Shown: positions 11,871-26,520 of the stretch, piece after piece
Layout: every line of letters begins with the position of its first letter
Position numbering within the stretch: position 1 is the stretch's first letter
From: Desulfobulbus sp.
Lineage (GTDB): Bacteria > Desulfobacterota > Desulfobulbia > Desulfobulbales > Desulfobulbaceae
Reading direction: 5' to 3'
Length of the DNA: 43,325 nt
Assembly: GCA_012729435.1 (NCBI GenBank)
Contig: JAAYDD010000064.1
Coordinates: 1 to 43,325 of the forward strand
Translations under genes and position numbers: made by a program
Notes under the pieces: generated by a model
What the model saw: the letters and a program-made list of their open reading frames with translations, nothing else
What the model was told of the DNA's origin: nothing
Databases searched by the model: none

Positions 11871-12938
11871 TCAACGGATAAAGACCATGCCGGGATTACC
11901 GTCGCGGACATCTCCAATCACCTGACATTCCGGCTCATATCCCCGCTCATGCAGGTTGCGCTGCATCCGCTCCGCAGCTTCGGGGGTCATACTCAGTACA
12001 AGTCCGCCCGAGGTCTGCGGATCATACCCGATCATCTCCACCGCATCCATTTCCGGTAGCTCGGAACGAACCCACTGACGATAAAAATCCCTGTTCCGGT
12101 AGGCTCCTTCAGGGATAATTCCCATATCAACAAACGATACAGCACCCGGCAGAAGAGGGAGTCGGCGCCTGTCAATATGCAGCGAGACTTCCGATGCCTG
12201 TGCCAGTTCGTGGAGATGGCCGAAAAGTCCGAAACCGGTGATATCCGTACATCCGTGCACCCGGTCACGTATCAACGGATCCCCCTCCAGGATCTCCAGA
12301 GGCATCCGATTGAGTGTTGCCAGCAGCTCAACCAGCTGCCGCTCCGTTGCCGGATCCGCAAGGCCGCCCTTAATCGCCGTGGACAGAATACCGGTGCCCA
12401 GAGGCTTGGTCAGCAGCAAGATATCACCGGCCTGGGCGCCGCTGTTGCGCAGCAGACGCTGGGGATGAACGACACCGGTTACAGCCAGTCCATATTTTAA
12501 TTCCGCATCCTCAATGGAATGTCCGCCGACCAGAAGTGCACCGGCCTCACGGATTTTGTCAAGACCACCTTCCACGACCCGACGAACTGCCGCCTGATCC
12601 AAGGTTCCGGTCGGACACGCCAGAATATTCATGCACAGCAATGGCCGTCCGCCCATGGCATACACATCGGACAGGGAGTTTGCCGCTGCGATCCTGCCAA
12701 AGTCGTATGGGTCATCAACGATCGGGGTGAAAAAATCCACGGTCTGGATAAGGGCAATGTCATCGGTAAGCCGATAGACACCGGCATCATCACAGGTTTC
12801 GGCACCGACAAGCAGGTTGGCATCGTGTGGCAGATCAAGCCCCTTCAGTATCTGGTCCAGGTCCCCCGGACCGAGCTTGGCGGCTCAACCTGCAGCCTTA
12901 ACAGTACTTGTCAGCTTGACAGATGACGAACGAATCAT
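11871..12938 (-). CDS. selD: Selenide, water dikinase; predicted selenoprotein with Sec at codon 18 (in-frame TGA at 12887..12885)
   Basis: ORF track begins only at 12740, but minus-strand ATG at 12938 gives [99 protein letters not shown]...; TGA replaces the conserved catalytic Cys/Sec before AAK. Confidence 0.93.
12860..12872 (-). promoter_or_regulatory. Candidate bacterial SECIS hairpin of selD
   Basis: 12 nt after the TGA: GGTCC-GGG-GGACC perfect 5-bp stem, with possible outer CCA/TGG pairing. Confidence 0.55.
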
Positions 12939-14867: not shown

Positions 14868-16022
14868 TCAGTGGGAACTGTGAGATGCGAGGCGGGCACA
14901 CAGAGAGACAAACGTCTGTCCGCTGGCCTCTTCCAGAGAAACGGCCAACTCCTTTGCCAGGAGGTATCGGCTCTGAATGGCATCCAGAGCGTCAGGATCA
15001 TCTTGATAGAGCGTCAGTTTTTCTCCAAAACGCTCTTCAAGCGTGATAAGCCGTCCTCCTTTGGCCAGCTTGTCGGCAAGATGAACGAGCTCACGCTCCG
15101 TGAGCGGGTCGCCGGGCTGCCAGTCCAGATCCTTATGCGCTGTAACGATACGGGCAGCACGCGGAAAGCCAAGACAGTCCAGCCATCTGCCGCCGGTCTC
15201 TTCATGGTATGGCTCTCCCTTGGCCACATCATGCAGCCTGCCTGCGACCCGGCAGAGATCAATCCGCAACCTCGCATCCTGATGATTGTTAACAGCCTCT
15301 GCAAAACCGGCGGCCAGTTCCCCCACCAGATAACCATGCGCCATCCCTTTGGGCGGCATGGGATAGATATGCTCCAGGATAACCGCTGTTTCTTCCAGGG
15401 ATGGATAATCCCGTCTGAGAAAACGCTCACGGCATTCGGCATAGGATTCCGGTGTGTCCATATCAAACAGGATGTTGGCGTCAGGTACCTTTACCGAAAC
15501 AACCCGCTCGGGCTGCATATCCTCATGACGGGCCAGCAGCGGGCGTAAACCGCCCGGCGCAGGAGAAACATCCACAAGACTGCGCAGCAGCGGCGCTGCA
15601 ATGAGGAGTGGATGGCCACGCCGTCCATCAAACTCCGGATGTACAACCTCTGCGCCGGTCCGGCGTAACGCCTGTTCCATCAGAGACAACGTGCCGGTGC
15701 GGACAAGCGGGATATCCACCGGCAAAAGAGCAATATACTCTGCCTCAGCCAGATGCTGTACACCACAACGGATAGAGCTGAACATTCCGGCGGCAAACTC
15801 TTCATTGAATACCGGTCGTGCACCACGGGCAAGTGCCTCGGCGGCAACCTCGCGCTCGCGATATCCGGTCACCACCACAATATCACGGATACCGCTCTTT
15901 TGAAGGGTATCCGTGCACTGCCCGAGAACAGAAGTCTCACCGAGCGGTAAAAGCGGTTTCAGCGTCTGCATGCGTGACGAAAAACCCGCCGCCAGTATGA
16001 GTCCGCTTAAGCGAGGTGCCAT
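14868..16022 (-). CDS. MobA/MocA-like NTP transferase fused to C-terminal HD domain (DVU_1551-type NTP transferase)
   Basis: LSGLILAAGFSSRMQTLKPLLPLGETSVLGQ, LLPVDIPLV, HPEFDGRRGHPLLI; C-terminal GRLHDVAKGEPYHE...VHLADKLAKGGRLITLEERF. Confidence 0.85.
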   Translation of the reverse strand: MAPRLSGLILAAGFSSRMQTLKPLLPLGETSVLGQCTDTLQKSGIRDIVVVTGYREREVAAEALARGARPVFNEEFAAGMFSSIRCGVQHLAEAEYIALLPVDIPLVRTGTLSLMEQALRRTGAEVVHPEFDGRRGHPLLIAAPLLRSLVDVSPAPGGLRPLLARHEDMQPERVVSVKVPDANILFDMDTPESYAECRERFLRRDYPSLEETAVILEHIYPMPPKGMAHGYLVGELAAGFAEAVNNHQDARLRIDLCRVAGRLHDVAKGEPYHEETGGRWLDCLGFPRAARIVTAHKDLDWQPGDPLTERELVHLADKLAKGGRLITLEERFGEKLTLYQDDPDALDAIQSRYLLAKELAVSLEEASGQTFVSLCARLASHSSH

Positions 16023-17050
16023 GCACGTCGACCCGTGGCCCGCTGGTAGATCAATTCACCGACGATGGAGACCGCAATCTCTTCCGGAGTATCCGCCTCG
16101 ATAGCCATACCGATGGGACACCGTACCTGTCCCAGCTGAGCCTCGGTGATCCCTCTGTCCAGCAGTTGTGTGTAAATAGCATTGCGTTTGCGACGGCTTC
16201 CGATCATGCCGATGTAACCGGCTCTAGTGCGCAGGGCCTGTTCCAGCACTTCCATGTCATGGAGATGACCGCGGGTCACGATGACCACATAGGTATCGCT
16301 GTCTATGTCCATATCGTTCAGGCAGCCGGCAAAGGTCGGGAGAACACGGATTGCAGTGGCGTGGGGAAACCGCCCTTTATTGGCAAATTCCTCCCGGTCA
16401 TCCATCACCGTTATCCGGAAGCCGACCCTGGCCGCTGCCTCAGCAGTACAGGCAGCCACATGACCGGCACCCACAAGCACGAGATGGCCGCCGCTTGAAA
16501 AGGAAGAAAGCAGATACTGTTCTGTCCCGCAGTCAACACGGGCGGCTCCTGACAGAGAGACTCCGGCCTGGCGGCAGAGCGAGACAACTTCGGAAGGAAG
16601 ATCATCCCGATCCACTCGTCCCCTGTGATCAATAAAAAAACGGAAATCCTCCCCGTTAAGGTGGCTGACTAAAGTAACCCTGCGACCGGCGCGCAATTCT
16701 TTTTCCAGCTGCTGGAAAACAGCTGTATTTTCTGCTGATGGAGCAATGTACTCCAGGTAAAGGTCCATTGTACCGCCACAGATCATGTCACTGACCGCAG
16801 CTTCAGAATTTGAAAGATCAAATCGTTTATACGCTCCTGTTTTTTGGAGAAAGCATGAAGCAGCCTCACGGATGGCCGTTGCTTCAACAATCCCTCCCCC
16901 AATGGTTCCGAAGATACTCCCGTCTTCGTGCACGATCATCTTGGTGCCGGCAACTCTGGGTGTGGATCCGGACTGACTACCAACGGTTGCCAGTACACAC
17001 GGTTTGTTATCGGCAAGGGTTGAGTAGAGATGACGAACGAGCCGTTTCAT
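16007..17050 (-). CDS. XdhC/CoxI-family molybdoenzyme maturation factor
   Basis: LATVGSQSGSTPRVAGTKMIVHEDGSIFGTIGGGIVEA, LVGAGHVAACTAEAAARVGF, VIVTRGHLHDMEVLEQAL, GMIGSRRKR, PIGMAIEADTPEEIAVSIVGELI; ATG 17050 has better SD than 17074. Confidence 0.92.
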   Translation of the reverse strand: MKRLVRHLYSTLADNKPCVLATVGSQSGSTPRVAGTKMIVHEDGSIFGTIGGGIVEATAIREAASCFLQKTGAYKRFDLSNSEAAVSDMICGGTMDLYLEYIAPSAENTAVFQQLEKELRAGRRVTLVSHLNGEDFRFFIDHRGRVDRDDLPSEVVSLCRQAGVSLSGAARVDCGTEQYLLSSFSSGGHLVLVGAGHVAACTAEAAARVGFRITVMDDREEFANKGRFPHATAIRVLPTFAGCLNDMDIDSDTYVVIVTRGHLHDMEVLEQALRTRAGYIGMIGSRRKRNAIYTQLLDRGITEAQLGQVRCPIGMAIEADTPEEIAVSIVGELIYQRATGRRAWHLA

Positions 17051-18359
17051 GATAACCAAACTCCCTTTGATCAATTAGTTGACGTTTTCCCTGATGCAGC
17101 AGCCCGTATCCGGAACTCTGTTCGATCCGGACGTGTACTCCGCACAGTTGCGGCAGCGCGGACAGCCGGCTTTTGGCTGCTGTGGCGGTTGAACCTTCAC
17201 AACTCGGTAGACACCGGAGCCGGATATGCAGATTCTCCTGGCCGGAATCTTCATCGATGACGGCGTTGAAATCGAGTAAACCGGGCAAATCAAAAAGCAC
17301 TTCGTCCAATGCCGGCAGATCGATCCAGGCCCCGCTGCACAGCCTGATCCGCCGGGAAATTCTACCCTTCACCTTATCAAGCCGCCGGATGGCGCTTCCG
17401 CAGGCACAGGTGCCGCCGAGAAGCCGGCCGAGATCGCCGGTCCGGTAACGAAGAAGCGGCATCCCCTGGCGCTGCAGGGTTGTCAGGACTATTTCACCCC
17501 ATCTGCCGTCATCCAGCGGATAACCGGTCTCAGGATCAATCACCTCCATGAGGAGATCGGTTTCACGGATATGCATGCCACAGTGCATGGAGCAGTCCAC
17601 CGCACCCCCCAGTCCGCTCTCCACGGTACCGTAGTGACTGAACACCTCACAGCCCATCGAATCCGCAAGTGCTCTTGTGATTGAATCCGGGATGTAGTCG
17701 GAACAGAGGAGCACGGAACGGATCATCGGCAGTTCCATCCTCCGGGCCTCGGCAACTCTGGCCACAGCCAGCAGCTGCACCGGAAAACCGATCAGCACAT
17801 CAAACCGTCTGGCAACAAGCTGTTCAGCCACTGCAACAGGGTCAGTGACCAGACCAAAGATCTCACTTTTCACATCCATTGCCTGCAGGGCAACAGCAAG
17901 AAGATAGCCTGTGGAATCAGGCGTGGATCCGGGCAGCAGAATGGCCGCCTGTTGACCCGGTGCTGCCAAATTGCCCATCCCGATCCTGAAAAACAGGCGG
18001 GTCCGTTCAAGATCGTCTTCGGTGAAGAAGAGCCGTTTGGCCGCACCCGTTGTACCGGAACTTGGAAGCGTGACAATCCTGGCCACCTCATCCTGCCGCA
18101 CACACAGCATATGCCGCCCCTGTTCCCGCAACTCAGCCTCGCTGGTAAGCGGCAGGGTCGCCAGGATATCAAGACCGATGTCTCTCTGACTGCCGGTGTC
18201 CGCCAGTTTTGAGCGGTAAAAGGGAGAACGGGATCGGCAGTACTCCACCAGACGATTGAGAGCCGCCGCCTGATAGGACTCTATGGCAGCACGGGATAAA
18301 GGTTCGCCTGAACCGGCGATGTCAAGCAGGAGAAGCTCCTCCAGGGTTGTTATCCGCAT
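17007..18359 (-). CDS. AMP-dependent CoA ligase/phenylacetate-CoA ligase-like protein (DVU_1553-type)
   Basis: 450 aa; LNRLVEYCRSRSPFYRSKL, TLPSSGTTGAAKRLFFTEDDLERT, SHYGTVESGLGG, LLRYRTGDLGRLLGGTCACGS. Confidence 0.87.
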   Translation of the reverse strand: MRITTLEELLLLDIAGSGEPLSRAAIESYQAAALNRLVEYCRSRSPFYRSKLADTGSQRDIGLDILATLPLTSEAELREQGRHMLCVRQDEVARIVTLPSSGTTGAAKRLFFTEDDLERTRLFFRIGMGNLAAPGQQAAILLPGSTPDSTGYLLAVALQAMDVKSEIFGLVTDPVAVAEQLVARRFDVLIGFPVQLLAVARVAEARRMELPMIRSVLLCSDYIPDSITRALADSMGCEVFSHYGTVESGLGGAVDCSMHCGMHIRETDLLMEVIDPETGYPLDDGRWGEIVLTTLQRQGMPLLRYRTGDLGRLLGGTCACGSAIRRLDKVKGRISRRIRLCSGAWIDLPALDEVLFDLPGLLDFNAVIDEDSGQENLHIRLRCLPSCEGSTATAAKSRLSALPQLCGVHVRIEQSSGYGLLHQGKRQLIDQREFGYHETARSSSLLNPCR

Positions 18360-19735
18360 GTTTCAATCCTCCGCGGATACAACGATCGGCCGGAGGCCGA
18401 GGTCAGGTTGTAGGCACAAAAGGGAATGAGCCTGCCGTCCGGTGTCGCCACATGGATGCAGCACCCCCGAAGACGTTCGAGATCAAGGTTCCACACATCC
18501 TGGAACGCCATGGCGGAGATGGAAAAGGTATGGGTGCGGGCACGGGCAAGGAAACGATCAAAATCATCCTGCCGGGATGCATCGGCCTCGACACCGTGTT
18601 TTTCAGCCATGGAGGCCATCGGCAGGCTCCACTGCCTGGCCGTGGTGCGCACACTCTGTTCACGGCCTGCTCTGGCCGTCGGCAGGAGGCCGACACGGTT
18701 GCCGTCACAGCAGGATGAGCCGCTCCTGATCGATGTGAGGCGACCGTTCTCTTCCACAAGAAACATGCCGTGAAATGAGCACAGGGCATGTTCGCATCCA
18801 GGTGGAGCAAAATGCCGCGCATCAACCATCCCGCTGCTCTGACTCACAATACATTGGATCACCTCAGGCAGGGTGATCCGTTTACTGTCAGCCGGGCCGG
18901 AACGGGGATAGCGGCCAAAATAGCTGATCGGCTGAAAATGAACGCCACGGACTGTCGGAGCATGTGAGACACCGTACCTGATGATGGCAAAGATCTCCTC
19001 CGTATTGACGCCGGGCACCAGGGTGGCCACCAGGACGACGCCAAGACCGGCGCCAGCACAGTGACGGATGGCACGCTCTTTTATACTTCTCAAATCGCGT
19101 CCCCGCAGGCTCCGGTGTGCCCGGTCCGTGATCCCGTCGAACTGGAGAAAGACAGAGGCAAGCCCCGCCTCTTTCAAAGAGACGGCATAAGCTGGGTCAT
19201 CAGCCAGCCTGAGACCGTTGGTATTGAGCTGGATAAAGGTAAAGCCTTTGTGTACACCCAGTCGGACAATATCGGTCAGATCGTCACGCACCGTGGGCTC
19301 GCCACCGGAAAGCTGGATATTACAAACGCCTGAGGCAACAAGAATCGTCTCATACATCGCCTCAATCTGCGCCAGGGACAGGTCCTCAGCAAGATCTGCA
19401 CCCGCATCGGCAAAGCAGACGGGGCACGCAAGGTTGCAGCGGTTTGTCACCTCAATCAGTGCCGTACAGGTATGCTGCCCGTGGGCGGAACAAAGACCGC
19501 AGTCAAAGGGACAGCCCTGACGGACGGTTGTCAGCGGATTTTGCAAAACCGACGGGATTTTAGGCCGCTGCCAACTTGAAAAAGACGGTTCTCCGCGCCA
19601 GATCGGAGTCCGGAACAGACCGTGTTCCGGACATTCTTTCACAAGGTAAACCGTCTCGTCCTGCTGCTGCCGGTGTGCCGTAATACGCCTGCAGCAGACA
19701 GGGCAGAGGCTTGCGGTACGACCATGAAGATCCAT
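18350..19735 (-). CDS. Radical SAM protein of the cluster
   Basis: CPFDCGLC..., EVTNRCNLACPVCFADAG (CxxxCxxC), IQLSGGEPTVRDDL, LNTNGLRLA; additional Cys motifs SLCPVCC, CSFHG, SSCCDG, GCCIH. Confidence 0.92.
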   Translation of the reverse strand: MDLHGRTASLCPVCCRRITAHRQQQDETVYLVKECPEHGLFRTPIWRGEPSFSSWQRPKIPSVLQNPLTTVRQGCPFDCGLCSAHGQHTCTALIEVTNRCNLACPVCFADAGADLAEDLSLAQIEAMYETILVASGVCNIQLSGGEPTVRDDLTDIVRLGVHKGFTFIQLNTNGLRLADDPAYAVSLKEAGLASVFLQFDGITDRAHRSLRGRDLRSIKERAIRHCAGAGLGVVLVATLVPGVNTEEIFAIIRYGVSHAPTVRGVHFQPISYFGRYPRSGPADSKRITLPEVIQCIVSQSSGMVDARHFAPPGCEHALCSFHGMFLVEENGRLTSIRSGSSCCDGNRVGLLPTARAGREQSVRTTARQWSLPMASMAEKHGVEADASRQDDFDRFLARARTHTFSISAMAFQDVWNLDLERLRGCCIHVATPDGRLIPFCAYNLTSASGRSLYPRRIETCG

Positions 19736-19741
19736 GGGGGC

Positions 19742-20197
19742 TTAAAAAGAACCTTCTGCCTGTTCTTTGGGCAGACTGGGATCGATGTTGTTTTCAACAA
19801 GGAGTTGAATGAGCGTTTCTCTCGCACGGAGCATGATGTTACCGCACACCTGAGGCTGAATACCACCGTTGTGAGCGACAATATCCTCACAACGTATACC
19901 GCCCCAGGTCGTCGATGTTCCCTTGAACCACTCCATAAACTGAGAGACAAGAACCGGATAACAGGGGAGCATCTCTTCCGTTGCGCTTCCCTTTGCGGCG
20001 TAGAGCGCCAGGACACAGACCGCACCGCTTGCCACACCGCACAGGCCGCCCTCACCGGCTCCTTCGCACAGGCCCGCCATGGAGCGCACGAGGGGAATAT
20101 TTTCCTCTCCCATGTCATCCAGAGCCAGCCGGATCATGATCTGACTGCAGCACAGACCTTCCGCCGCCAGTTGCATGATGCGCAAATCATCTTCCAT
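19742..20197 (-). CDS. C_GCAxxG_C_C family (redox-type Cys-rich) protein
   Basis: 151 aa; AAEGLCCSQIMIRL, GLCEGAGEGGLCGVASGAVCVL, CEDIVAH, QVCGNIML. Confidence 0.85.
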   Translation of the reverse strand: MEDDLRIMQLAAEGLCCSQIMIRLALDDMGEENIPLVRSMAGLCEGAGEGGLCGVASGAVCVLALYAAKGSATEEMLPCYPVLVSQFMEWFKGTSTTWGGIRCEDIVAHNGGIQPQVCGNIMLRARETLIQLLVENNIDPSLPKEQAEGSF

Positions 20198-20947: not shown

Positions 20948-21157
20948 TCACTTGTCTTCCAGAAGCTGTTCAACCTCCAGCATTTTACCCGTGGCAAGGT
21001 TTTCCGGCACGAGGATGAAATCACAGGCCGGGCAGACCATCAGCTCTACGTTGAACACTGAATTCAGATAGGTGACCCTGACTTTGGCCGGCTGCAACGG
21101 TTGATCGCAGGCGGCACAACGCCACTCGGTCGCCTCGGCAAAGGAAAATGTACTCAT
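20948..21157 (-). CDS. Small double-CxxC (rubredoxin/zinc-ribbon-like) protein (DVU_1557-type redox protein)
   Basis: 69 aa; WRCAACDQPLQPAKVRVTYLNSVFNVELMVCPACDFILVPENLATGKMLEVEQLLEDK; start overlaps end of downstream-numbered gene by ATGA. Confidence 0.8.
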   Translation of the reverse strand: MSTFSFAEATEWRCAACDQPLQPAKVRVTYLNSVFNVELMVCPACDFILVPENLATGKMLEVEQLLEDK

Positions 21158-23460
21158 GAGTCGGCCTCCGGTAACTGCATGCGATGGCTGTATCCGCTGT
21201 GAAGGATGAATCCGTCGTCAGCAGGCTCATATTCGGCCCAATAGGTGACAACAGCCGGCTTGAACGAAGCCAATCGCCGTCCGTTGGCCGGGTTGTGCAG
21301 ATACCGCCCCGTTGTCTCGGCTTGATGGATAACCTTTTGCATGTCCTCCACCAGAATAAGCCGTTCTTCGAGCAGAACCCGAATCTCATCATCCATTTCC
21401 AGACGGATTGCCCGATGAGGAGCCGATGATTCGGCCGGATCCTGCCATAAAGTGCTCTGAAGACGGGCTTTCAGCCGGGCACGCTGCTCATGCCGACCGG
21501 ACAGTCCTACTCTTGCGCGGGTGAGAGGATCCTTCTTTGGATCTGCAAACAGACAATCCAGAAGATGGGCCATATGCGTCTTACTGCCGACCATGTTTTC
21601 CCGGCACATGGCGCAATAGGCAAGTCCTTCATCTGTTGTGCTCCGGCCTGCCTTCAGATCGGCCGCTTTGCCGCCAAGCGGTCGGTTGGCGAACTGCATC
21701 AGTCCACCATATCCGCAACAGTCCGCCAATTCGGCACCGATTGTTGTTTCAGTGACAGGCAATCCGATCTTGGCACATATGCTCCGCACGCTTGCCCGTA
21801 CCCCTTCCTGATACCGTGCAGTACAGGGATCATGTATTGTCAGCGGTGTTTTCGGAATATCAAAGCGTATCTCCGGCAGAGGGAGGGCATCAAGCACCTG
21901 CCAGAGAGACATTACCTCAAGATCAGGGGCATGCTTGCCGAAGATCGCCAAACAGGAGGAACAGGCGACAATCAGGGTAGGTTTGCCCATCTGTCCGACC
22001 AGGGTTTTAAGATCTGATAGGACATCTGAAAAAAGCTCCGATTGCCCGGCCCAGTCTGCAGGTGCGCCGCAACAGCTGAGAAAGAGTCCGATCCCTCCTT
22101 CAAGGTGCTGTGTTAAATAGGTATAGGATCGTTCGACTGTATCCGGGTAGGTTCCGGCCAACTGGCAGCCTGGAAAAAAAAGATACCTGCTTGCGGTGGT
22201 ACCCGGCTGATGACGGATCAACGCACAGTCCTCACCAAGGGTATACTCCATCTCGCCCAGAGCAAAGGCATGAGCCGAGGGCGGCATATGCCCGGTGGCC
22301 ACCATCTCCTGACGGGTGGCATGACAGACTTCTGCAACCGGAAAATCATTAGGGCAGATAACAGTACATTGCCAGCACAGACTGCATGAATTGATCATCC
22401 GGTTGGCACTGCGGGTGCCCTGAACAATCGCCTGATTATTGTAGATCTTGCGCACCAGAGTTTTAGGATACTCTTGAAACTCCTGAAGATAGGCACATTT
22501 TTTCACACATTCCAGACACTCGCAGTAGATGCAGCGAGCCGCCTCCGCCCTGGCCTCCTCAGCCGTATAACCATCGATGGGGCTTGCCGCCGTGATTTCA
22601 GAGGCACGAGGAATGCCCTCCGTGACTGTATACATCCGGGTCGGACAGGCCCCTTCTTTTTCACGCTGTGCCGTTAACGACACCCCCTGGAGGTAACGCT
22701 CCATCGAAAGGGCAGCCCTGCGTCCGTTTTCCGCCTGATGCATGACTGAGAAGGGTTTATCTCCCTCAACACCGCCGCCGCCGAAACAGCCTTTTTGTTC
22801 CAGAGCAAGTGTAACCGGATCAGTGGTACCGGAGGAAAACGGCAGAAGATCTCTATCGAAATCATCCCAATCGAAATAGATGACATCGTATTTTTCGAGA
22901 AAAGAGTCGACTGTCTCCCTGTCCAGGGATGCGCCCTTGACGATGTCCGCACCGTACCCCTTGAGGGTGGCCTCCGCCTGATCAAAGACCTCGGGAGGAA
23001 GAAGCGCACCAGCCCGGTCCGGCAGTGAACCGCCAAGACGGGCGCGCGCAGTGATCAAAGTGGCCGGCCGGCCCTTGCGGCTCAGATCAAGCGCTGCCGT
23101 CATACCGGAAAATCCGGCTCCCAGTACTGCCACGGCACCGCCCTTGATCGGGAGCTTAGGCGGCTTGAGTACGGTACCTGTAACGCTGACACAATATCGT
23201 TCCAGCGGACCGATGGCGAGCGGATCACCGATTTCGGCACGTTTGCAGAAAGGACGGCAGGGCTGGTCGCAGATTCGCCCGAGGATCTCCGGAAAAGGCA
23301 TGGTCCGATCGAGAATTTTCCTGGCCTCGCGCAGTTCATCCTTGGCCAGACATGCCATCAATCCGCGGGCATCGACGTGGATAGGGCAGGCCGCGGTGCA
23401 GAACGGCATCTCTTCCTGAATACAAAGAGCCTCAAGAGCTCTGAGTTGCGATTGATCCAT
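21154..23460 (-). CDS. Large Fe-S flavoprotein: GltD-like N-terminal NAD(P)-binding oxidoreductase fused to heterodisulfide reductase/GlpC-like CCG-domain segment
   Basis: CTAACPIHVDARGLMACLA, ICDQPCRPFCKRAEIGDPLAIGPLERY, VAVLGAGFSGMTAALDLSRKG, CIYCECLECVKKC, CSLCWQCTVICPNDFPVAEVC, FFPGCQLAGTYP, FLSCCGAPADW, DCCGYGGLMQFA. Confidence 0.88.
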   Translation of the reverse strand: MDQSQLRALEALCIQEEMPFCTAACPIHVDARGLMACLAKDELREARKILDRTMPFPEILGRICDQPCRPFCKRAEIGDPLAIGPLERYCVSVTGTVLKPPKLPIKGGAVAVLGAGFSGMTAALDLSRKGRPATLITARARLGGSLPDRAGALLPPEVFDQAEATLKGYGADIVKGASLDRETVDSFLEKYDVIYFDWDDFDRDLLPFSSGTTDPVTLALEQKGCFGGGGVEGDKPFSVMHQAENGRRAALSMERYLQGVSLTAQREKEGACPTRMYTVTEGIPRASEITAASPIDGYTAEEARAEAARCIYCECLECVKKCAYLQEFQEYPKTLVRKIYNNQAIVQGTRSANRMINSCSLCWQCTVICPNDFPVAEVCHATRQEMVATGHMPPSAHAFALGEMEYTLGEDCALIRHQPGTTASRYLFFPGCQLAGTYPDTVERSYTYLTQHLEGGIGLFLSCCGAPADWAGQSELFSDVLSDLKTLVGQMGKPTLIVACSSCLAIFGKHAPDLEVMSLWQVLDALPLPEIRFDIPKTPLTIHDPCTARYQEGVRASVRSICAKIGLPVTETTIGAELADCCGYGGLMQFANRPLGGKAADLKAGRSTTDEGLAYCAMCRENMVGSKTHMAHLLDCLFADPKKDPLTRARVGLSGRHEQRARLKARLQSTLWQDPAESSAPHRAIRLEMDDEIRVLLEERLILVEDMQKVIHQAETTGRYLHNPANGRRLASFKPAVVTYWAEYEPADDGFILHSGYSHRMQLPEADS

Positions 23461-23646: not shown

Positions 23647-26364
23647 CTATTTCGGCATAGCAGCCAGTACCTTCTCCGGAAGAGCGGGAAGGTGTCGGAT
23701 ACGGGCTCCGCAGGCGTTGTAAATAGCGTTAATAACCGCAGCATGCGGACAGGTCAGCGGCAACTCGCCGGTACCCGATGCACCAAATGGACCATCCGGT
23801 CGCGGTGTCTCCACGTAGATGATCTCCATGTCATCGGGAATCTGCTTGATGTAAGGAAAGCCGGCTCCGGCCAGCGTCGAGTGTTTCTTGATATCCTCGA
23901 AATCCTCGGTCAGAGCAAGACCGATTCCCTGGGCCAGGCCTCCATAGATCTGACCGTCCACCACCAGCTTGTTGGCGATTGTACCGGCATCGGCAACACA
24001 GGTCATCCTCTCCACAGTGGTCTTGCCAGTGGCCACCTCTACAGCAACTTCAGCCATGAACAGACCGTACATATAGCAGCTGAAGGGATTTCCCTGGCCG
24101 TTCTCATCACAGTTGGTACCAGGAGATGTCCACTTGCCGACAACTTTGGTCGGGATGTTTTCGGCTACCATCTCGTCGTAGCTGCGGAAAGTGCCGTCCG
24201 CCTTCTTCATAGCGCCGAGCAACTCCTCACAGGCGACCCTCGTCGCCTGTCCGGTCATGACCTGGCTTCGGCTTCCGCCGGCCGGCCCTGAGTTAGGACA
24301 GACTTCGGTATCGTTCATCACAAGCCTGATCTTTTCCGGTCCGATGCCCAGTGGCCGCAGGGCTTCATGGGCCGTGGCCAGGGTTCCCATATCAGCACCC
24401 TGTCCATGATCTTCCCAGGTGTTGAAGATAGTGATGGTTCCGTCGGCGTTCAACTCTGCGTAGGCCTCAGAGGTATCAGGGCCGTCAAGTCCCGCGCCAT
24501 ACACGCCAAGGGAGATACCGACACCGTGCTTTACCTCTGCAGTCGACTGGGCGGCGGTTCGCTTCTTGGCCTCCTCGTATTTGGGGCGCAGTTTATCGAG
24601 CATCTCCGGCAGGGAGTAGACTTCCGGATCCTGCCCTGTCGGAGTTGTTGCGCCTTTACGATAGCAGTTCTTGTACCGCAACTCCAAAGGATCCATATTC
24701 AGCTTTTCGGCCAGCTCATCCATCAGGACCTCAGAGGCGAACTCCGACTGCGGTGCACCATAACCGCGGAAGGCAGATCCCCAGGCGTGGTTTGTGCACA
24801 CCGTTCGCCCCTCACCACGGATATTTTTTATATCATATCCGGCACCGATAAACTGAGCTCCGCGCAGGGTGAGCAGATCACCAAACTCGGAATACGGCCC
24901 ATGATCCACAGTCCAGTCCGTCTCCATGCCCAAAAGCGTGCCGTCCTTGCTTGCGGCCATACGAACGTTCATAAAGAACGGCGAACGCTTGCCGGTGTAG
25001 GTCTGCTGCTGGAAGTAGTTATAGCACAGATAGACCGGTCGTCCGGTGGCCATGGCTGCGGCACCTACCAGGGCTTCCATGGTGGGACTGAATTTGTAAC
25101 CGAAGGTACCGCCGGTGTTGTTCTGAACCAGGATAAGATTCTCCGGTTCAACTCCAAGGCCGGGCGCGATCATATAGAGGTGCAGGTGCAGACCGATGGA
25201 TTTGGAGTGAATAACGAGTTTTCCCTCGTCGTTGTGATAGGCAAAACCGACATCCGGTTCAATGGGCATATGGGGCTGACGTCCCACATAATAATCGCCT
25301 TCAGCAACCACGTCTGCCTTGTCAAAAATAGGCTTGGTTTCCTCACCTTTGACGATCTTCTGTATAAAGTACACATTGGGAGTACCGGGATGGATCTCTA
25401 TGGCATCGGGCTCCATGGCTGCAGGAGCACTCATGTAGGCCGGCAGTTCTTCGAGTTCCACCTTTACCTTCTTGGCTGCAGCCTTGGCATTCTTCTCGGT
25501 ATCGGCACAGACTATGGCAATGGCATCACCATACTGAAACACCTTGGTATCGCAAAGAATAGGACGGTCCCATCCGTCGCCCTTATTGGTCGGGAAGGTG
25601 ATGAGCCCGGTAATCCGGTTTTTCCCCTTGATATCCTTTGCCGTCACCACCTTGAAAACTCCGGGCATCTTCTCAGCTTCACTCGTATCCACTGAAAGGA
25701 TATTGGCATGAGAGACCTCTGCCTGAACAAGGGCGAGCTGCAGCGTCCCCTCCGGCAGGCGGAGAGCGGCGTCAGCACCAAAATCCCAGGTTCCGGTGAC
25801 CTTGGCTACTGCACTCGGTCTGGGCATGGTTCCGCCGAAAACCTTACCATCAGCCGGCAGTTTGTATGCCAGTTCCTGCATGGTCATCTTGCCTTGCAGC
25901 ACTTTGGCAGCGTCCCGTACTGAATCGACCAGCTGCTTGTAGCCGGTGCAGCGGCAGGCATTGCGATATCTTTGAAACCAGTCGCGGATGTCTTCTCTGG
26001 ATGGATCACTGTTCTGATCCAGCAGAGCCTTGCCGGAAACAATGAAGCCAGGTGTGCAAAAGCCGCACTGAGCGCCACCGTGCACCATCCACGCAAGTTG
26101 CAGGGCATGCAGATCCGAAGGAGTACCAACACCCTCTATGGTGGTGATCGCCGCTCCCTCCGGAACACGGCTCATCCTGGTGACACAGGACCGGATCAGT
26201 TTGCCGTCCATGATGACGTTACAGGCACCGCACTGTCCCTGACCACAGCCGACTTTTGTTCCGGTAAGGTGCAGACTCTTTCTGATCACATCTGACAACA
26301 GATCAGACTCTTCTGCAAACACCGTCCGTTCGATACCGTTAACAAGCAATTTCCGTTTAATCAT
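23647..26364 (-). CDS. Molybdopterin-dependent aldehyde oxidoreductase (xanthine oxidase family, single-chain [2Fe-2S] Mop type)
   Basis: CGQGQCGACNVIMDGKLIRSC, CGFCTPGFIVSGKALL, CRCTGYKQLVDSV, NNTGGTFGYKFSPTMEAL, AFRGYGAPQSEFASE, GASGTGELPLTCPHAAVINAIYNACGARIRHLPALPEKVL; ATG 26364 preceded by GAGGAGG (ORF track start 26409). Confidence 0.95.
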   Translation of the reverse strand: MIKRKLLVNGIERTVFAEESDLLSDVIRKSLHLTGTKVGCGQGQCGACNVIMDGKLIRSCVTRMSRVPEGAAITTIEGVGTPSDLHALQLAWMVHGGAQCGFCTPGFIVSGKALLDQNSDPSREDIRDWFQRYRNACRCTGYKQLVDSVRDAAKVLQGKMTMQELAYKLPADGKVFGGTMPRPSAVAKVTGTWDFGADAALRLPEGTLQLALVQAEVSHANILSVDTSEAEKMPGVFKVVTAKDIKGKNRITGLITFPTNKGDGWDRPILCDTKVFQYGDAIAIVCADTEKNAKAAAKKVKVELEELPAYMSAPAAMEPDAIEIHPGTPNVYFIQKIVKGEETKPIFDKADVVAEGDYYVGRQPHMPIEPDVGFAYHNDEGKLVIHSKSIGLHLHLYMIAPGLGVEPENLILVQNNTGGTFGYKFSPTMEALVGAAAMATGRPVYLCYNYFQQQTYTGKRSPFFMNVRMAASKDGTLLGMETDWTVDHGPYSEFGDLLTLRGAQFIGAGYDIKNIRGEGRTVCTNHAWGSAFRGYGAPQSEFASEVLMDELAEKLNMDPLELRYKNCYRKGATTPTGQDPEVYSLPEMLDKLRPKYEEAKKRTAAQSTAEVKHGVGISLGVYGAGLDGPDTSEAYAELNADGTITIFNTWEDHGQGADMGTLATAHEALRPLGIGPEKIRLVMNDTEVCPNSGPAGGSRSQVMTGQATRVACEELLGAMKKADGTFRSYDEMVAENIPTKVVGKWTSPGTNCDENGQGNPFSCYMYGLFMAEVAVEVATGKTTVERMTCVADAGTIANKLVVDGQIYGGLAQGIGLALTEDFEDIKKHSTLAGAGFPYIKQIPDDMEIIYVETPRPDGPFGASGTGELPLTCPHAAVINAIYNACGARIRHLPALPEKVLAAMPK

Positions 26365-26520
26365 ACGCTCCTCCTCGGCGCAAGTGGTCTCGATGACTCT
26401 CTCGTACAATGAAAATAATAACTATATTTTATAACCTACCTCGGTAAAAAAACCAACTGTCCTGACAGCAGTCGGGCACCTGGCTCCGCACAATCGTTTC
26501 TCCACCGTGTAAAATAACCA

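Follow-up and report, generated by a model that had tools for sequence, protein, structure and literature searches.

The window analysed here is the whole 43,325-nucleotide stretch of Desulfobulbus sp. DNA (GenBank accession number JAAYDD010000064.1). It was found to carry nine contiguous genes on one strand, running from position 26409 down to 14868, each of which matches a family of the DVU_1551-DVU_1559 cluster. All nine genes of this type cluster (NF045663-NF045669, NF045645 and NF045646) are represented (9/9), and the comparison disclosed no difference. The genes, together with a domain of DIC that occurs as a stand-alone gene in other genomes, are as follows.

23647..26409, (-): molybdopterin-dependent aldehyde oxidoreductase (AOR); NF045668, 1720 bits, cut-off 1100
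21154..23460, (-): pyridine nucleotide-disulfide oxidoreductase / [4Fe-4S] dicluster protein (DIC); NF045663, 966 bits
21157-21450, (-): C-terminal domain of DIC (DIC-C)
20948..21157, (-): DVU_1557-family small CxxC/CPxC protein, 69 aa; NF045645, 103 bits, cut-off 60; PF24292
20204..20944, (-): DVU_1556-family SAM methyltransferase; NF045667, 205 bits, cut-off 155
19742..20197, (-): DVU_1555-family C-GCAxxG-C-C protein; NF045669, 150 bits, cut-off 103
18350..19735, (-): TrsS, radical SAM (seleno)protein family, Cys form, 461 aa; NCBIfam NF045646, 7TOL match, AF2 model
17007..18359, (-): DVU_1553-family AMP-forming ligase (PaaK-like); NF045666, 422 bits, cut-off 300
16007..17074, (-): XdhC-family aldehyde oxidoreductase maturation factor; NF045664, 402 bits, cut-off 350
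14868..16022, (-): DVU_1551-family NTP transferase (MocA-like) with HD domain; NF045665; PF12804, PF01966

The AMP-forming ligase retains the motifs SGTTG, HYG..E and TGD together with the conserved C-terminal Lys. DIC-C is about 75-95 aa long, has the motif VTYWVEY...AYSHRM, and its model was predicted with high confidence. No Pfam match was obtained for the copy in the window, and Pfam hits such as DUF4258 were scattered and weak. DIC-C had no significant relative by sequence among solved structures, and the RelE/HigB-like matches found in a fold search were weak (E above 0.03).

Identity and predicted metal centres of TrsS

The open reading frame at 18350-19735 (-) starts with ATG and encodes a protein of 461 aa with 22 Cys. 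In the NCBIfam profile search it matched NF045646 with 685.4 bits (cut-off 490) across profile positions 2-440 of 441. The AF2 model (pLDDT 91) had 7TOL as its best match in a search of solved structures (TM 0.81, E 6e-44), and the nearest solved structure by sequence, found with the family profile, was GDGT-MAS/Tes from Methanocaldococcus jannaschii (E 9e-129). The TrsS proteins were monophyletic in the tree and set apart from Tes-like homologues with a local support of 0.993, the window protein lying inside the TrsS clade; its score against the Tes/GDGT-MAS profile NF045702 was 355.3 bits, below the cut-off of 450. Membership of the MoaA or SPASM-type radical SAM families was rejected, as the MoaA score was 82 bits against a cut-off of 284 and the other families listed were all far under their own cut-offs.

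The window protein is a Cys member of the already named TrsS family; the table of a 2026 review (PMC13188914), following Haft and Tolstoy 2025, counts this family among the predicted selenoproteins. In so far as Haft and Tolstoy 2025 do not already cover them, the present analysis adds to that listing a map of the Tes ligands on TrsS, the placement of Sec near a ligand of the C-terminal cluster, and client enzymes that differ between genomes. A literature search turned up no functional study of the DVU_1551-1559 genes, nor any data on a substrate, a product or a mutant.

A preliminary description of this DNA had drawn attention to six Cys-containing motifs, and all were found in the translation: CPVCC (C11-C15), CPFDCGLC (C75-C82), CNLACPVC (C100-C107), GCEHALCSFHG (C314/C319), SCCDG (C342/C343) and GCCIH (C425/C426). 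The residues of interest were located as follows.

19622..19705, (-): predicted rubredoxin-type metal site C11, C14, C35, H38; aligned with Tes C9x2C12x20C33x2H36, invariant in 116 TrsS
19481..19513, (-): predicted N-terminal auxiliary [4Fe-4S] ligands C75, C79, C82, H85; aligned with Tes C73, C77, C80 and a conserved His
19466..19468, (-): C90; 116/116 TrsS, outgroup comparison
19415..19438, (-): radical SAM Cx3Cx2C motif C100, C104, C107; Pfam PF04055, invariant
18794..18796, (-): C314 codon (Cys/Sec position), TGC in the window; TGA at the aligned codon in six Acidobacteriota genomes
18779..18781, (-): C319, predicted C-terminal auxiliary [4Fe-4S] ligand; invariant, aligned with Tes chain C358
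18707..18712, (-): vicinal C342-C343 in a low-confidence loop (pLDDT about 55); 92/116 and 89/116
18509..18511, (-): M409, counterpart of the labile cluster ligand Met439 of Tes (alignment; PMC9433317); 116/116
18416..18463, (-): C425 and C440, predicted C-terminal auxiliary [4Fe-4S] ligands; invariant, aligned with Tes CCIHY...PFC

According to PMC9433317, Tes holds a rubredoxin-like iron through C9, C12, C33 and H36 and an N-terminal [4Fe-4S] cluster through C73, C77, C80 and a His, while Met439 is the labile ligand of a C-terminal [4Fe-4S] cluster; two SAM-derived radicals are employed, and the first substrate radical is held on the C-terminal cluster as a C-S bond. In the TrsS-7TOL alignment the Tes chain numbering is shifted by 20, a value that accommodates C9, Met439 and Tyr459 simultaneously. 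The ligand-type Cys of TrsS match these metal ligands of Tes (PMC9433317) residue by residue, in agreement with the auxiliary Fe-S clusters suggested in the preliminary description.

Conservation of the additional Cys in orthologues had been set beforehand as the test of that suggestion, and it holds for the ligand-type residues. Among 116 aligned TrsS, C11, C14, C35, H38, C75, C90, C100, C104, C107, C319, M409, C425 and C440 are invariant, and C79, C82 and H85 are kept in 115, the exception being a single gapped row. C342 is present in 92 and C343 in 89 of the 116 (the pair in ~78 percent), C426 in 83, C138 and C226 are likewise partial, and C15 is hardly conserved. The invariance of the ligand-type residues indicates that the cysteines of TrsS are not there by chance. 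Since the ligand positions of Tes are all occupied and conserved, the cluster set of TrsS is taken to be that of Tes, and four metal centres are predicted: a rubredoxin-type iron, an N-terminal [4Fe-4S], the SAM [4Fe-4S] and a C-terminal [4Fe-4S] with a labile Met. C319, C425 and C440 would be the Cys ligands of this last cluster, being invariant and able to complete it. C15, C342/C343 and C426 fall outside the Tes-type set and are not expected to be ligands.

TrsS and Tes/GDGT-MAS (MJ0619; 7TOL, 7TOM) thus have in common the fold, the rubredoxin-type site, the ligand sets of both auxiliary clusters, the SAM motif and the labile Met, whereas TrsS is shorter, bacterial, located in a different operon and under the Tes cut-off. 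Individual positions differ as well. Tyr459, which is dispensable in Tes, corresponds to Val429 in the window protein and to V, I, E or T across the TrsS family; C314 (Cys or Sec) stands where Tes has Ser; and C90, also kept in other bacterial homologues, is Ile in M. jannaschii Tes. The vicinal pair C342-C343 sets TrsS apart from Tes, and outgroup homologues show a gap or non-Cys residues there; located in a flexible loop, the pair could act as a redox arm. An insert of many CC-rich repeats was seen within this loop in the TrsS of Consotaella (L111:8971-10548).

The Cys/Sec position C314

The preliminary description had raised the possibility that Sec replaces Cys in some genomes. This was borne out in relatives, while the window copy, which has no in-frame TGA, is the Cys form. 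A TGA at the C314 codon was seen in the first locus survey in an Acidobacteria MAG (L127), and among 297 genomes of its phylum that were searched, six had a single TGA in trsS. In all six (6/6) the TGA is at the C314 position, in the context PPGUEExHCSF or near, and SelA and SelB are present (6/6). Sec in TrsS is accordingly placed here at GU(E)xxHCSF, the table of PMC13188914 giving no motif. Downstream (3') of the TGA, 6/6 Sec-form genomes have CTCTCCGTG(T/C)TGAGAG, in which a 5-bp hairpin (CTCTC-CGTG(T/C)T-GAGAG) begins roughly 30 nt beyond the TGA, again in 6/6 genomes; it is disrupted in three Cys-bearing sisters (L167, L168 and L169). The folding energy of this candidate SECIS was no better than that of shuffles, and the six Sec forms and three Cys sisters make up one clade of the tree. 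The conserved hairpin, the aligned TGA and SelA/SelB support Sec at C314 rather than prove it, because the six genomes are related and the hairpin energies do not surpass those of shuffles.

The C314 column of the 116 TrsS holds 72 Cys, 1 Sec, 22 Ala, 6 Ser and others, and this residue is not strictly essential, because Ala or Ser replaces it in many TrsS. C314 lies five residues ahead of the predicted cluster ligand C319, and its distance in the sequence and the homology with Tes point to a possible role near the C-terminal cluster. One genome (G475, loci L166 and L170) has two TrsS, the Cys copy adjoining AOR and the Sec copy at another locus.

Recoding was rejected for the internal stops in L092, L112 and L120, which look like frameshifts or mis-framed matches, and for TAA/TAG in L082 and L086, which are at the C-terminal end. 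Elsewhere in the window, selD (11871-12938, (-)) has an in-frame TGA at 12887-12885 (KAAGUAAKLGPGDL), upstream of the listed GTG start, and it looks as though this selD itself may encode a selenoprotein. SelB is present in the genome of the window; SelA was not found in this assembly, which is 82.7 percent complete.

Gene neighbourhoods and proposed function

The preliminary description placed the methyltransferase and the AMP-forming enzyme adjacent to the radical SAM gene. The latter (17007-18359) is indeed directly downstream, while the methyltransferase belongs to the same operon with the C-GCAxxG-C-C gene (19742-20197) in between. A survey of 80 loci from Desulfobacterota, Bacillota, Chloroflexota, Acidobacteriota, Alphaproteobacteria, Spirochaetota and others, as judged from record titles, showed the gene order of the window to recur nearly unchanged, DIC being found at 67 TrsS loci, the ligase at 66, the methyltransferase at 63, C-GCAxxG at 62 and AOR at 53; these counts are lower bounds, because several contigs end nearby. 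The conserved order is what suggests that methyltransferase and ligase may take part in one multi-step modification, as had been put forward. No transporter or regulator was constant among the neighbours, and in a few loci neighbours within 10 kb can be coincidental.

TrsS and the AOR family had an identical distribution in 96 related genomes (18/96), one TrsS of the 18 being cut by a contig end. Across the phylum, AOR was present in 32/43 genomes with TrsS vs 2/352 without it (Fisher p 2e-35, uncorrected for relatedness), and 11/43 TrsS genomes had no AOR over the cut-off. A TrsS clade without adjacent AOR (support 0.87) has DIC-C encoded as a separate small protein. Where AOR is missing, the constant core consists of DIC-C, DVU_1557, methyltransferase, TrsS and ligase, XdhC and the NTP transferase being missing from many of these loci. 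In place of the AOR of the DVU_1551-1559 type cluster, the core of other genomes has different partners. At L161, L164 and L165, and at 38 percent identity at L132, it is accompanied by a tungsten-type AFOR together with a Tat-type ferredoxin; L123, L172 and L173 have HgdB/BcrAD-type genes, and L107 has TRAP transporter and fumarate-reductase-like genes.

Two further features of Acidobacteriota loci were observed. The N-terminus of the stand-alone DIC-C proteins (L161, L164, L165, L169 and L170) is, by eye, of the twin-arginine type (SRREFA...), which suggests that the protein is exported in its folded state, perhaps loaded with a cofactor. A second, distinct radical SAM protein is encoded beside TrsS genes at L162:7508-8608, L167:9482-10618 and L169:3478-4614.

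Building on the observed family identity, ligand conservation, Sec site, operon and co-occurrence, the best explanation of the whole, given a probability of roughly 0.45, is a Tes-like TrsS in its Cys form that belongs to a module making or attaching a redox cofactor for the DIC/AOR chain. In the scheme proposed for its substrate, product and order of steps, a 5'-deoxyadenosyl radical generated at the SAM cluster would abstract H from a small or acyl-type substrate, at an unactivated carbon, and the substrate radical would be trapped on sulfur of the C-terminal cluster, as in Tes. C314, Sec in some relatives, might assist beside this cluster by ligation or by the return of sulfur or electrons. 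The AMP-forming ligase would activate a carboxylate and the methyltransferase would methylate, the two making or attaching, with DVU_1557, the redox cofactor of the dicluster oxidoreductase, which would carry the electrons of the Mo aldehyde oxidoreductase. A biosynthetic module serving the DIC/AOR chain and, elsewhere, other enzymes is favoured with moderate confidence, because TrsS keeps the apparatus of Tes and the ligase keeps its adenylation motifs and Lys.

In favour of this reading, client enzymes that vary around a constant biosynthetic core are what is seen with a dedicated cofactor such as mycofactocin. It might further be proposed, doubtful as this broader version is, that TrsS, the methyltransferase, the ligase, DVU_1557 and DIC-C make and carry an undescribed redox cofactor for several unrelated anaerobic oxidoreductases (Mo AOR, tungsten AFOR and the 2-hydroxyacyl-CoA-dehydratase type), with a radical step using Cys/Sec beside a substrate-binding [4Fe-4S]. 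The module resembles the mycofactocin and PQQ systems in combining a radical SAM enzyme with small proteins and client oxidoreductases that vary between genomes, but unlike them it has no identified precursor peptide, and TrsS passes no SPASM-family cut-off.

The changing partners could equally belong to catabolic pathways that share a CoA ligase and an electron-transfer protein. TrsS, the methyltransferase and the ligase would then convert a growth substrate, AOR oxidising the aldehyde and the acid being loaded on CoA; a PaaK-like ligase with full ANL motifs suits this role, and HgdB/BcrAD-type dehydratases, TRAP transporter genes and a fumarate-reductase-like protein are typical catabolic partners. 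Such a pathway is nevertheless unlikely, given that the core is kept across several phyla with unrelated partner enzymes, that the XdhC and MocA-like maturation genes are within the operon, and that neither transporter nor regulator is constant.

Those two maturation genes, together with the exact co-occurrence of TrsS and AOR in the 96 relatives, would suit a role of TrsS, methyltransferase and ligase in modifying molybdopterin or the AOR/DIC polypeptide. This too appears improbable, as the 11 TrsS genomes with no AOR over the cut-off speak against it, and the core also accompanies AFOR, whose fold is different, and the pterin-free enzymes of the HgdB type. The absence of XdhC and the NTP transferase from many AOR-less loci is as expected if these two alone serve the pterin. 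That TrsS joins two alkyl chains, as Tes does, is very unlikely, for although Tes is its closest solved relative and both have the cofactor ligands and the labile Met, TrsS scores 355 bits against a Tes cut-off of 450, forms a separate clade (0.993), has Val, Ile or Glu in place of Tyr459 and is encoded in an operon centred on redox enzymes, with no lipid genes.

TrsS represents a bacterial, operon-linked relative of an enzyme that uses an Fe-S cluster to join two inert carbons, and the selenium variant of TrsS lies close in sequence to a ligand of the C-terminal cluster. The exchange of Sec and Cys, together with the genome holding both copies, makes the role of C314 testable. If the module does make a cofactor, many sulfate reducers, acetogens and gut Clostridia would possess a new electron carrier.
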